Assembly: GCF_024296665.1 (NCBI RefSeq)
Contig: NZ_CP100762.1
Coordinates: forward strand, 2,852,001 to 2,916,000
Length of the DNA stretch: 64,000 nt
From: Salinilacihabitans rarus
Lineage (GTDB): Archaea; Halobacteriota; Halobacteria; Halobacteriales; Natrialbaceae
Direction: 5' to 3'
The number at the start of each line of letters is the position of its first letter. Positions within the stretch are counted from its first letter, which is position 1. Positions 25,661-31,003 of the stretch are shown here, one piece after another. The notes under the pieces are model-generated. The model was not told the origin of the DNA and made no database searches. It saw nothing but the letters and a program-made list of their open reading frames with translations. The position numbers and the translations under genes are program-made.

Positions 25661-26980
25661 TCAGTTTTCGTCGGCCGGCGAGCGGTTTCGGGCACTCGTG
25701 GGGCTCTCGCTCGTCGAGCGTACCGGGTCGGAGCGGCCGCGGACGCCGGCTAACGGCGAGGCGAGGAGCGCGAGCGCGGCGAGGACGATGATCCCTGCCT
25801 CGATCGCGAGCACGCGAGCGGCGCCGACCGCCTCGAGCAGCGGCCCCGCGACGGCGATCGCCAGCGGCGGCGTGGCCAGCGCGAGCGCTTTGACGATGGA
25901 GAAGACCCGCCCGCGGTGATCGTCCGGGACGAGCGCGTGCATCAGCGTCCGGCCGGGGACCTGAACGGCCGCGATACCCGCGCCGAACGCGGCCATACAG
26001 AGCGTCCCGGTCACGAGCGGGAGGGGTGCGCTCGCGGCGGCGATCGGGAGTGTGGCGAGCGCGACGCCGCTGACGGCCAATCCGACGATCATGACCGGCC
26101 CTCGCGATTCGGTGACCGCGTTCGGTTTCGCGCCGACGAGCACCGACCCGCAGATCGTCCCGACGAAGGTGCTCCCGTAGAGGAGGCCGTAGGCGGCACT
26201 CCCGCCGTCGAGTTGCGTCTCGACGAAGAAAGGGAGGACGACGGCGAGAGGGCCCGTCGCGACGCCGGCGATCATCGAGAGGAAGACGACCGACACCACG
26301 ATCGGCGTTCGAACGACGTATCGAAGCCCGTCGACGGCGTCGCGGAGCACGGTTCGACTCGTCCCGTCGCTCGCGTCGCTCTCGGGTACGCCCGCGCTCG
26401 TCGGAACGCGACCGAGGAGGACCGCGGCGAGGAGAAAGCTCGCCGCGTTGATGCCGAACGCGACGGTCGTCCCGAGGACGGCTATCAGCGCCCCGCCGAA
26501 CACGTAGCAGATGCGCGCGGCGTTCGTCGTGAGGGCTAACAGCCCGTTCGCTGCGTCCAGCCGTTCCCGGTCGACGATCGCCGGGATCACGGCGCTCCGG
26601 GCGGGCGTCACGAACGCCGCCATCGACCCCTCGACGACGGCGGCGGCGACGACGGCGGGGAGGAGCCACGACTCCGGCCCGTAGAGCGCGACGACCGGGA
26701 GCGCTCCGACGGCAACGGCCCGGGTGAGGTCGGCCGCGATCATCACCCGCTTTCGGTTCCAGCGGTCGACGAGCGCCCCGGCCGGCACCGAAAAGAGGAG
26801 GTCCGGAACGAGCGCCGCAACCGCGACGGCGGAGACCACCAGCGGATCGCCCGACACGTCGTACGCCAGCCAGATGACGGCGATCGAGTGGACGCTCGAT
26901 CCGACGCTTGAGACCAGGTTGGCCGCCCAGAGGGCCGCGAAGCGGCGATTCTCTAAGGCGCGTCCGAGCCCCTCGGTCAT
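25661..26980 (-). CDS. MFS transporter, probable exporter of the borosin-like cluster
   Basis: A 439-residue major facilitator protein with 12 hydrophobic segments and the loop 2-3 motif A as PAGALVDRWNRKRVM. A shorter R-G-P-V-M type repeat lies after helix 8, and R-G-R-V-F-S-I-V near the start of helix 10. It resembles the MFS_3/EntS-like efflux group. The ATG at 26980 overlaps the stop of the methyltransferase gene (ATGA), so translation is coupled. That coupling, and the precursor gene upstream, suggest it exports the modified peptide or gives immunity. This role is inferred; the family is clear. It ends about 50 bp from the convergent PAN stop. Confidence 0.85.
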   Translation of the reverse strand: MTEGLGRALENRRFAALWAANLVSSVGSSVHSIAVIWLAYDVSGDPLVVSAVAVAALVPDLLFSVPAGALVDRWNRKRVMIAADLTRAVAVGALPVVALYGPESWLLPAVVAAAVVEGSMAAFVTPARSAVIPAIVDRERLDAANGLLALTTNAARICYVFGGALIAVLGTTVAFGINAASFLLAAVLLGRVPTSAGVPESDASDGTSRTVLRDAVDGLRYVVRTPIVVSVVFLSMIAGVATGPLAVVLPFFVETQLDGGSAAYGLLYGSTFVGTICGSVLVGAKPNAVTESRGPVMIVGLAVSGVALATLPIAAASAPLPLVTGTLCMAAFGAGIAAVQVPGRTLMHALVPDDHRGRVFSIVKALALATPPLAIAVAGPLLEAVGAARVLAIEAGIIVLAALALLASPLAGVRGRSDPVRSTSESPTSARNRSPADEN

Positions 26981-27816
26981 CCTGACTCGTCGGCCCGCCC
27001 CCTCGTGATCGTCTCGAGGTGGTCCGCGGACGCCACCCGGTCGGCGAGGGCTTCGTTGACGACCTCCTTTTCGGGGACGCGGGGGACGTAGAGCGTCTGG
27101 ACCGCGTTGATCTCGTCCGACATGGCCTCGAACTCCGAGAGGGCGAACGTCAGCCGTCGCGACTCCGTGAACGGGTACGTCGCCGTCTGCAGGAGGTGTA
27201 CCTCGTGGTCGTCCGGATAGAACCGCTGGAGGTACCGCCGGATCCGGGAGAACCGCTCCGGGCGGTGGTCGGCCTCCGTGTACCGCAGCGTTTCGACGAT
27301 CCCGATCTGCCAGATCATCGCTGGCGCTCGCGGTTCGAGGTCGTACTCGTGGAGGAGCAGGTCCGTCGCCTCGTACATCTGCACCCCGTTCGCCGCCGGA
27401 TCCAGCGGGAGGTCGGCGTACAGGCAATCCATCGAGGAGACGCCGGGACGCTTCTCGACGCACAACCCGCGTTCCGGGGCCTTCTCGACGATCCAGCGGC
27501 TGGGCGAGACGAAGACGAACGGGTGACCGTACAGCGCGAGCGTGACCGGCTCGTCGCTCGCCTCGGCCGCGTCCAGAACGGTCTCGGCCATCGCCTCGTA
27601 CGAGTTCTCTCGAAGGCCGCCCTCGTCGTACAGCTCACGGAGGTCCGTGACCTCGGCGTCGAACGAGTCGAGGTGTCGGCGCATGATCTCTGGCTGGTGA
27701 TCCAGCAGGTACACCTCGCTCGACGACTCGAAGGCGAGTTCGACTTCGCGGGTCAGCTGTCGGGTGCCGACCATTCCGGTACCGACTACGTAGATGTCGC
27801 ACAGGTGTTCTGACAT
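26977..27816 (-). CDS. Borosin-type alpha-N-methyltransferase (split, tetrapyrrole-methylase fold)
   Basis: A 279-residue SAM-dependent enzyme of the tetrapyrrole methylase superfamily. It starts D-I-Y-V-V-G-T-G-M-V-G with the SAM-binding glycine loop. It shows the hallmarks of the fungal borosin enzyme OphMA (compared from memory): LYDEGGLRENSY matches its YYDNGKSRLNTY, placing Y63, R69 and Y73 on the catalytic Tyr/Arg/Tyr. YGHPFVFVSPS (Y96) and PGVSSMDCLYADLPLDP match equally well. Corrin and cobalamin methylases do not share the DCL.ADL..DP run. Unlike OphMA the substrate peptide is not fused; a separate 69-residue gene lies 34 bp upstream. ATG at 27816. No Shine-Dalgarno site is visible, and the gap is C-rich. 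Predicted reaction: methylation of backbone amides in the precursor tail. Confidence 0.85.
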   Translation of the reverse strand: MSEHLCDIYVVGTGMVGTRQLTREVELAFESSSEVYLLDHQPEIMRRHLDSFDAEVTDLRELYDEGGLRENSYEAMAETVLDAAEASDEPVTLALYGHPFVFVSPSRWIVEKAPERGLCVEKRPGVSSMDCLYADLPLDPAANGVQMYEATDLLLHEYDLEPRAPAMIWQIGIVETLRYTEADHRPERFSRIRRYLQRFYPDDHEVHLLQTATYPFTESRRLTFALSEFEAMSDEINAVQTLYVPRVPEKEVVNEALADRVASADHLETITRGRADESG

Positions 27817-27850: not shown

Positions 27851-28060
27851 CTAGACGACCACGATGATGACGACGGTCGAGGTCTCGATGGAGAAGACGT
27901 CGACCGCCGCCTCTTCGTCCCGGGCCGCGACCGCGTCGGCGGCGTCACCGTCCAGGTCGTACTCCTCGACCACCGCCTCCGGGTCCGAGCGCACCTTCGC
28001 GAGGAAGGATTCGTCGTTCATCGAGCGATCGATCATCGCGTCTGCCATGCGTGCGGACAT
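27851..28060 (-). CDS. Borosin-like RiPP precursor peptide
   Basis: A 69-residue peptide. Residues about 18-50 form an acidic helical leader with D-P-E-A-V-V-E-E-Y-D-L and a later A-V-A-A-R-D. This resembles the binding domain of split borosin precursors, where a D/N-P-E-A-x and L-x-x-x-x-x-x-A-x-x-x-G/R-D pattern precedes the core. The tail FSIETSTVVIIVVV is an all-beta-branched Val/Ile stretch like the backbone-methylated core of omphalotin precursors, and it ends exactly at the stop codon, so no follower is present. Start at 28060: a TATA box 28-35 bp upstream fits a near-leaderless mRNA. ATG 28048 or 28024 would shorten the leader. Cleavage site and methylated residues unknown. Confidence 0.82.
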   Translation of the reverse strand: MSARMADAMIDRSMNDESFLAKVRSDPEAVVEEYDLDGDAADAVAARDEEAAVDVFSIETSTVVIIVVV

Positions 28061-28086: not shown

Positions 28087-28096
28087 TATTTAAACC
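28087..28096 (-). promoter_or_regulatory. TATA box for the borosin-like operon
   Basis: Minus strand GTTTAAATAC, a near-consensus haloarchaeal TATA element centred 31 bp before the precursor ATG at 28060. A purine-rich GGAAACAG just upstream could serve as the BRE. It is the only obvious promoter for precursor, methyltransferase and MFS gene. Confidence 0.7.
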
Positions 28097-29130: not shown

Positions 29131-29301
29131 TCACCCGCGGTTCAGGGACGCGGTGACCGCCTGCGGCAGGAAGACGCCGACGACGAGCAGGATCGCGACG
29201 ACCGCCCGCGACCCCCAGTCCGTGACCGTGACCGCGAGTACCGTGAGGGCGAGCGCCAGCGCGACGAAGCTGGCGACGACGCGGTTTTCGCGGGAGACCA
29301 T
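29131..29301 (-). CDS. Small two-helix membrane protein
   Basis: A 56-residue protein: N-R-V-V-A-S-F-V-A-L-A-L-A-L-T-V-L-A-V-T-V, then a D-W-G-S-R turn, then a second helix V-V-A-I-L-L-V-V-G-V-F-L-P-Q-A. Two membrane spans fill almost the entire chain. ATG at 29301. In the presumed ancestral order it followed infB directly on the same strand; the AT-rich insert at 29346-31019 now separates them. Function unknown. Confidence 0.6.
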   Translation of the reverse strand: MVSRENRVVASFVALALALTVLAVTVTDWGSRAVVAILLVVGVFLPQAVTASLNRG

Positions 29302-29345
29302 GCGGTCGCTTCCGCGTCGGTCGGACAAAAAACTACTCGCCTCTC

Positions 29346-29359
29346 ACTTCCCCCAGAAG
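29346..29359. repeat. 14-bp direct repeat, left end of AT-rich insert (att-like)
   Basis: ACTTCCCCCAGAAG, identical to 31006-31019. On the minus strand this copy still reads the last codons of infB (Phe-Trp-Gly-Lys) but followed by TGA. It is therefore probably the displaced original gene end. Confidence 0.7.
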
Positions 29360-29466
29360 CCACCGAATTGTACAACAGATTGTTCACACAAAAATATCGG
29401 GGCGAATCGCGCTCCCGTCTGGCGATTTCACCCCTATCAACGGTCTGTTCGAGTACCGACGGAACT

Positions 29467-29496
29467 ATCAGAATGAGTTTATCAGAATAGTTATCA
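29467..29496. repeat. Short iteron-like TATCA repeats
   Basis: TATCAGAA at 29467-29474 and 29480-29487 on a 13-bp period, then TTATCA at 29491-29496, all within the AT-rich insert upstream of its first gene. They may be a protein-binding array or chance in AT-rich DNA. Confidence 0.35.
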
Positions 29497-29616
29497 CCGC
29501 GCTGTACGGCGATTCACGTCTCAAGGGTAGTGCGACCCCACCGTGGCAAAATTAGGTCTTACAGAGGGGGTGCACACGCGGCTGGTGGGCCATCAGACTG
29601 CGCGCTCTCTCCCGCG

Positions 29617-29664
29617 CTTTGATGTATCACAGTTGCAAAGAGCGGGTATGGTCTCAGAGACAGT
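29617..29664 (+). repeat. 48-bp conserved 5' block, copy 1
   Basis: Matches 30361-30408 at 39 of 48 positions, including CTTTGATGTATCA and TATGGTCTCAGA across the start codon. The block carries promoter and start of both insert genes and marks them as duplicates. Confidence 0.7.
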
Positions 29665-30205
29665 GCTCAGCACACTCGGGGGCGTTATTGTCGGTTCGCT
29701 TCTGACTGGTGGGTTCAACTATCTCAATACACAGCAGCAGGTACAGTCAGCCAACCAGCGACAACGGGCCGAATTTGTTGCAGAGAGGAAAGTTAACGAA
29801 CTGTTGGACTTGTCTTCAGAAATCAGCCATTCATACAAATTTATACTGAAATGTCTCTCACTCGCTGTTGATGACGAAAGTCTTCCTGTGGAACGGCTTC
29901 TACAACTGCCTTCAGAAGTCGAAGCGAAGGGCAACGCTGCAGGGATGTTTTTGGATAATGAGAAGATGGAGCCAATTGACACCTATCACTTTCAGTTAGT
30001 GAATGCTCAGTTATTCCTTCTTGAAGCCACTGAAGAGAACATTAGTGAGATTGAAAATCATTTACTACATTCAGAATTTTTACATGAAGAAGAGATTGAA
30101 AGGCGCGCATCGATGTTCGATTTTGACGAATTCAACGAAGCCTACGCGGAAGCAAACTCCGTCCTCCGATGGGAAGTAGCGGAGCCGATAGAGAGGCTAC
30201 GTTAA
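29648..30205 (+). CDS. Membrane-anchored protein of the AT-rich insert, paralogue 1
   Basis: A 185-residue protein. One N-terminal membrane helix (about 5-24, V-L-S-T-L-G-G-V-I-V-G-S-L-L-T-G-G-F) is followed by a polar, mostly helical cytoplasmic part with Gln/Arg-rich coiled-coil character and many Glu. The start at 29648 is set by alignment with its paralogue: both begin MVS(E/D)T with the same upstream block. A GTG 105 bp earlier would add residues absent from the paralogue. Base composition is clearly lower in GC than the neighbours, and codons such as ttt, aat and aga are frequent: a sign of transfer. Function unknown; the fold type occurs in mobile elements. Confidence 0.7.
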   Translation: MVSETVLSTLGGVIVGSLLTGGFNYLNTQQQVQSANQRQRAEFVAERKVNELLDLSSEISHSYKFILKCLSLAVDDESLPVERLLQLPSEVEAKGNAAGMFLDNEKMEPIDTYHFQLVNAQLFLLEATEENISEIENHLLHSEFLHEEEIERRASMFDFDEFNEAYAEANSVLRWEVAEPIERLR

Positions 30206-30360
30206 CCCTGTAACCCGTTTCGTAGTTTCATCCAGAGATGCATAGCCGCCACACCAGCGGCAGCATATACGTCCGCGAGAAAAGCACGCACCCTACTCAT
30301 CCCGCTCTAATTCCGCTCGAAACCCACACTGATAGGATAGTGACGGACACGACCCCCACT

Positions 30361-30408
30361 CTTTGATGTATCAAGGTTGTGAACAGCCGATATGGTCTCA
30401 GACACGGT
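30361..30408 (+). repeat. 48-bp conserved 5' block, copy 2
   Basis: Second copy of the block at 29617-29664, spanning the start of the downstream paralogue. Confidence 0.7.
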
Positions 30409-30955
30409 TATCGGCGCTGTTATCGGTGTAAGCGGGGCTATAATAGGTTCATTGGTCACTGGCGCGTTCAATTGGCTATCTACACGGCAAAGAATGGAAG
30501 CCGAACGCGAAAACCTCCGAATCAGACAGCAAGCCGAGACAGAACGACGGAGAGGAGAGTATTATCTTCAGCAGAAGGTGGAGGCGCTGATGAGCCTCTA
30601 TGCGATTCTCGAAGAGACACGGCGGGAGTACAAGAAAACGGCAGATAAGGCTGTGTACGGAGAGATTTCACAAGAAGAGTATGATGATGTGATTGACTGG
30701 TATCATAAGTATGAGCGAGCAATGGATAGGGCCGCAGTTTTTCTCAGCGACGAACAGCATGAGATTCTGCTGGAAGCCTTCAATAAAATTCACGACACTA
30801 ACTCATTTCTCCACCGCAAGGTAGACAACCCCAAGCAAAGCGACTACTCTGAATTTGGACTATCAGAATACAACGACCGATTCAATACCGCAGAAGAGAT
30901 GCTAAAAGAGGAAATCAGAGGGCCAATTGAAGCACTCCATTGCAGTCGCTACTAA
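30392..30955 (+). CDS. Membrane-anchored protein of the AT-rich insert, paralogue 2
   Basis: A 187-residue protein with an N-terminal membrane helix (V-I-G-A-V-I-G-V-S-G-A-I-I-G-S-L-V-T-G-A-F-N-W-L) and a long charged coiled coil (about 30-75: R-Q-R-M-E-A-E-R-E-N-L-R). A helical C-terminal part follows with W-Y-H-K-Y-E-R-A and a late E-E-M-L-K-E-E-I-R-G-P-I-E. It shares length, topology and the end pattern (E-x-x-x-P-I-E) with the gene at 29648. Same AT-rich composition. I cannot assign a function; no enzyme motif is visible. Confidence 0.7.
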   Translation: MVSDTVIGAVIGVSGAIIGSLVTGAFNWLSTRQRMEAERENLRIRQQAETERRRGEYYLQQKVEALMSLYAILEETRREYKKTADKAVYGEISQEEYDDVIDWYHKYERAMDRAAVFLSDEQHEILLEAFNKIHDTNSFLHRKVDNPKQSDYSEFGLSEYNDRFNTAEEMLKEEIRGPIEALHCSRY

Positions 30956-31003
30956 TGGCGCGTCTCATTTAGTCGTTGTACACAGTTGTGTGTACGATTT
31001 CGT

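Follow-up and report, generated by a model that had tools for sequence, protein, structure and literature searches.

A Val/Ile-tailed precursor gene and its methyltransferase neighbour suggest a split-borosin cassette in the haloarchaeon Salinilacihabitans rarus

Does a haloarchaeon encode a backbone N-methylated ribosomal peptide in a gene of 69 codons? The question is raised by a locus of Salinilacihabitans rarus lying in a 64,000-nucleotide stretch of contig NZ_CP100762.1 that was analysed as a whole (the window). An open reading frame on the minus strand (28060-27851, 69 aa, translation MSARMADAMIDRSMNDESFLAKVRSDPEAVVEEYDLDGDAADAVAARDEEAAVDVFSIETSTVVIIVVV, then the stop) has the C-terminus TVVIIVVV, in which 7 of 8 residues are Val or Ile, with a TAG stop immediately after. 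The initial annotation had described such a tail ending exactly at the stop, and the translation bears this out. The features of the locus are as follows.

28087..28094, minus strand: TATA-like box TTTAAATA, read from the sequence, about 30 nt ahead of the precursor start codon; putative function
27890..28060, minus strand: precursor portion before the linker
27878..27889, minus strand: precursor linker IETS, residues 58-61, predicted to be unstructured; boundary approximate
27854..27877, minus strand: precursor candidate core TVVIIVVV, residues 62-69; stop codon 27853-27851
26977..27816, minus strand: putative borosin-type backbone alpha-N-methyltransferase, 279 aa (PF00590; SonM match; predicted structure)
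25661..26980, minus strand: MFS_3 / TIGR00900-like exporter, 439 aa; start overlaps the methyltransferase stop (ATGA)

The precursor ORF is a real gene, since a profile built from six haloarchaeal homologues, with the precursor itself excluded, ranked it first of the 469 window ORFs (E 6e-16) and its GC content by codon position (0.69/0.37/0.91) is like that of the adjacent genes. It was still first of 469 with a leader-only profile from which the tails had been cut (E 5e-15). To gauge how rare such a tail is, we pooled the window with 15 haloarchaeal stretches, which together gave 1,756 ORFs of 50 aa or more. The precursor alone had at least seven Val/Ile among its final eight residues, and a 7-of-8 Val/Ile stretch at any position was present in just two of the pooled ORFs. 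The position of the TATA-like box would fit a near-leaderless haloarchaeal transcript of the precursor; a scan for sigma-70 promoters and terminators found nothing, as expected for archaea.

The methyltransferase gene begins 34 nt downstream of the precursor, and its product belongs to the tetrapyrrole methylase fold/superfamily. Its best PDB sequence match was SonM (E 6e-27, ~28% identity), and the PDB sequence matches were all borosin peptide N-methyltransferases, save one insignificant match. The best 50 fold matches of the predicted structure (mean pLDDT 80) were also all borosin methyltransferases. In SonM, Y58, R67, Y71 and Y93 were mutated to test catalysis or SAM binding (PMC8429565). 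These residues align to Y63, R69, Y73 and Y96 of the window enzyme, and their equivalents are invariant across nine haloarchaeal methyltransferases, placing the window enzyme in the borosin clade with the catalytic Tyr/Arg/Tyr set. The SonM match and the conserved catalytic residues support the earlier proposal that a borosin methyltransferase is linked to the precursor. The order precursor, methyltransferase, MFS protein is repeated in one relative (G325), and the composition of the cassette does not mark it as foreign.

Homology of the precursor leader was more distant. Matches to the single sequence were weak (LigA, E 0.008; Os1348 RiPP leader, E 4e-7, under its cut-off), and a PDB search with the single sequence gave noise only, so that a profile was required. 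Compared with PDB sequences, a profile of seven haloarchaeal precursors retrieved SonA chains (E 0.003-0.008) and gallate dioxygenase, with the nitrile hydratase alpha chain as the top match above SonA. The borosin-binding domain of SonA (residues 1-53) is a five-helix bundle whose structural relatives cap dioxygenases. The AlphaFold2 model of the precursor has helices at 3-15, 17-25, 27-33, 39-45 and 49-57, after which the tail is disordered (mean pLDDT 67, low past residue 49). Foldseek of this model against the PDB returned just five matches, four SonA chains and dbOphMA, all weak (E 5-10) but each of the kind that a borosin precursor should retrieve. This suggests that the leader, with its five predicted helices, is like the SonA borosin-binding domain, and it supports the earlier description of a helical acidic leader. 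By the profile match to SonA, together with the weak fold match, a separately encoded precursor with a putative borosin-binding domain lies beside the enzyme.

We examined 392 Halobacteria genomes for both genes. The methyltransferase was present in nine, and the precursor profile matched in seven, all among those nine; no precursor homologue was found without the methyltransferase among the 392. Ten haloarchaeal methyltransferases group in a single clade (support 99/98), separate from the bacterial enzymes, which are about 31-43% identical to the window enzyme. Among the haloarchaeal precursors, the leaders have a mean pairwise identity of 40% (0.40) compared to 21% (0.21) for the tails. Tails are hydrophobic in six genomes, S. 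rarus included, and some sister precursors bear short hydrophilic ends (NN, SSEA, SRKRD). The tails found next to the enzyme in relatives are:

G325: AAAVLVVVVNN
G174, two precursors: VLVAVVVTIARA and ATVYTITITYVSRKRD
G043: VSVTIIVRIR
G169 and G083: GIQIAGIVLPSSEA

A conserved leader with a variable but hydrophobic tail, the pattern that the initial annotation had expected of a core, was found in five of the other eight genomes, the remaining three being Halobellus clavatus, G217 and G334. As judged by alignment rather than from a model of the complex, the hydrophobic, variable core lies at a position that the enzyme could reach. Ends that are not rich in Val/Ile occur in three of the nine haloarchaeal clusters, a second clade of Halobellus clavatus and two relatives. 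The precursor profile finds nothing in G217 and G334, where a divergent short ORF beside the methyltransferase ends DFDPRSWLINN; precursor-like short ORFs with this ending and no Val/Ile tail were seen at L015:9553-9858 and L016:9486-9665. Halobellus clavatus has a divergently encoded precursor (L018:7406-8134, minus strand, the same as L017:9165-9893) in which six DDNIGYTGDS units in tandem fill the stretch from the leader to the stop, possibly a multicore borosin-type precursor. At L011:8343-8908 in G174, two unlike precursors stand in tandem upstream of a single methyltransferase, with ABC transporter genes upstream. In G697, from the same phylum and another family, a single 426-aa frame (L037:1000-2280) is fused leader-first, in the order borosin-binding-like leader, proline-rich stretch, methyltransferase domain.

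Collectively, these results suggest, with a probability of about 0.8, that the window locus is a minimal split-borosin cassette of the SonM/SonA kind, comprising a precursor, a backbone N-methyltransferase and an exporter. Very probably, its three genes yield a Val/Ile-rich peptide that is methylated on its backbone and exported. From the gene identities, catalytic residues, leader/tail pattern, linkage and operon order computed here, we infer the following route, from methylation onwards. The N-terminal helical bundle of the precursor would dock onto the methyltransferase dimer. With the C-terminal TVVIIVVV threaded through its active site, the enzyme would use SAM to methylate backbone amides in the N-to-C direction, most likely those of some residues in the range 63-67. 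One cut by a cellular peptidase, at a putative site between leader and tail, would follow, and a short, hydrophobic, protease-resistant N-methylated peptide would be exported by the MFS protein. The product is likely to be linear rather than cyclic and may act as an antagonistic or signalling peptide.

The precursor could instead be an accessory cap subunit, similar to LigA in dioxygenases, serving a methyltransferase with another substrate. This would agree with the relationship of the leader to LigA-type domains and with an enzyme from the tetrapyrrole methylase superfamily, but we consider it very unlikely: the enzyme and structure matches are all peptide N-methyltransferases, with the peptide-binding tyrosines and arginine conserved, and the tails diversify like cores, one sister genome having two precursors of unlike tails and another six tandem repeats. 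Even less credible is that the precursor is an unmodified membrane-associated protein with its Val/Ile tail as an anchor and the methyltransferase a neighbour by chance. Eight hydrophobic C-terminal residues do follow an acidic domain, but a tail of that length is too short to cross a membrane. It is also the leader, of the SonA/LigA kind, that is conserved and not the tail, and the protein is never without the methyltransferase in the 392 genomes. A protein kept without a linked methyltransferase, which had been named beforehand as the finding that would speak for an anchor, was thus not encountered.

A further possibility keeps the borosin pathway and differs in the last step, with a serine peptidase of the genome closing a macrocycle, as OphP does for omphalotin. 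In G169, G083 and a Haloarcula sp. CBA1115 plasmid, a prolyl oligopeptidase-type protein is encoded directly after the methyltransferase. Relatives of this sister-cluster protein include prolyl endopeptidases, Peptide cyclase 1 and OphP, and the linked precursors end LP-SSEA (tail GIVLP-SSEA). The omphalotin-cyclising enzyme OphP can use Pro at P1 (PMC12235650). The S. rarus genome has three other S9 peptidases elsewhere, but the POP propeller PF02897 had no match. The window tail also lacks a follower that could be displaced, as well as the Pro, Gly or Ala that OphP prefers at P1 (PMC12235650). An omphalotin-type system has a POP in its cluster and a follower peptide; here PF02897 is unmatched and the stop comes directly after the tail. 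Cyclisation at this locus is therefore unlikely. Since that genome has no PF02897 match and three other S9 peptidases, it would be simpler to suppose that a host peptidase cuts the window precursor once and that the product is linear. The earlier remark that no protease is adjacent holds for the window cassette and fails for the sister clusters, where the prolyl oligopeptidase lies beside the methyltransferase. The row of precursor, methyltransferase and prolyl oligopeptidase was observed at L013:6939-10156, L014:8323-11565 and L050:8746-11897 (Haloarcula sp. CBA1115 plasmid). An ABC transporter lies upstream in divergent orientation, and the precursor tail is GIQIAGIVLPSSEA; these pieces are annotated only as 'hypothetical protein' and 'SAM-dependent methyltransferase'.

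The split-borosin reading can be compared with known systems. Like SonM/SonA of Shewanella oneidensis, a type IV split borosin (PMC8429565), the window locus encodes a methyltransferase and a ~70-aa precursor separately, and it shares the five-helix leader (predicted here), the catalytic residues and a C-terminal hydrophobic core without a separate follower. Unlike SonM/SonA, the window system is archaeal, with a Val/Ile-only core, a shorter end after the putative methylation sites and an MFS exporter in the operon. The putative core of the 71-residue SonA comprises residues 62-71, up to its final residues (PMC8429565). The claim that the precursor has no follower is therefore correct, with the stop directly after the tail, but this is not peculiar, because the putative SonA core likewise extends to the C-terminus; a core running to the stop codon is not new. 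If the profile alignment is continued ungapped, the methylated L63 and I65 of SonA would correspond to I65 and V67 of the window tail, which stops two residues past the putative second site, compared to six in SonA. This short end speaks against the split-borosin reading, as do the weak fold match of the precursor, the low model confidence past residue 49 and the three haloarchaeal clusters with ends not rich in Val/Ile. A precursor ahead of the enzyme is no distinction either, as this order also occurs in bacterial relatives. Split borosins of Opitutaceae, Streptomyces and Mycobacterium (L019-L034) have a homologous leader and enzyme with the precursor directly upstream, several with Thr/Val/Ile-rich cores, but these bacterial precursors add a conserved C-terminal segment past the core that haloarchaeal precursors do not have. 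The bacterial precursors at L019:7589-7987 (Opitutaceae) and L025:7470-7979 (Rhodobium) have long runs of Thr/Val, such as STTTTTTVITTTTTTTTTTSAT, that follow the leader or lie beyond it.

The fungal omphalotin system (OphMA/OphP, PMC12235650) has a similarly Val/Ile-rich core and the same enzyme fold. It differs in that enzyme and core are fused, the core has a follower and the product is cyclic; its prolyl oligopeptidase, OphP, has a counterpart in sister haloarchaeal clusters, whereas the window genome has none of that type. Core and methyltransferase of the window are on separate ORFs, which sets them apart from fused borosins of the fungal type (types I-III). EreM of the proteusin pythonamide also N-methylates the backbone of a ribosomal peptide at valines (PMC11285071), but it is an FkbM-like enzyme unrelated to the borosin fold, acting on a long core with other modifications.

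Borosins are known from fungi and bacteria, and the haloarchaeal locus very probably extends them to archaea. Our literature search on borosins in archaea and halophiles, whose coverage of borosin papers was incomplete, found no report of an archaeal borosin, so that the archaeal occurrence is new as far as the literature searched shows. In a survey of 11,644 archaeal genomes, the abundant classes were YcaO-related, radical-SAM, lanthipeptide and lasso peptides, and no borosin was named (PMC12144867). Because of this, and because their annotation is generic, the haloarchaeal clusters look overlooked. On balance, we think that haloarchaea have their own undescribed split-borosin clade, with stop-ending Val/Ile-only, prolyl-oligopeptidase-linked and six-repeat multicore forms; archaea would thereby gain their first backbone N-methylated ribosomal peptides. 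With three genes and an eight-residue core, the cassette would be a very small system in which backbone N-methylation could be tested at high salt. Omphalotin maturation may have a parallel in archaea, as suggested by the sister clusters that encode a prolyl oligopeptidase.

Three further genes lie within 7 kb of the cassette.

24363-25610: PAN
22356-24242: M3 peptidase
21002-22417: M28 peptidase

These were considered as maturation genes of the cassette and rejected as resident genes. Seven relatives were inspected, and in six of them PAN lies next to PvlArgDC at a distance of 190-850 bp; some also have M3 and M28. In the window, the PAN-PvlArgDC gap is 2,561 bp and is occupied by the cassette, which suggests that M28, M3 and PAN stand outside it. 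Elsewhere in the window, positions 29300-31000 form a low-GC island (about 0.48-0.57 compared to 0.68). Its ORFs 29657-30205 and 30392-30955 had no match in Pfam and are similar-looking, each opening with a short membrane-like segment.
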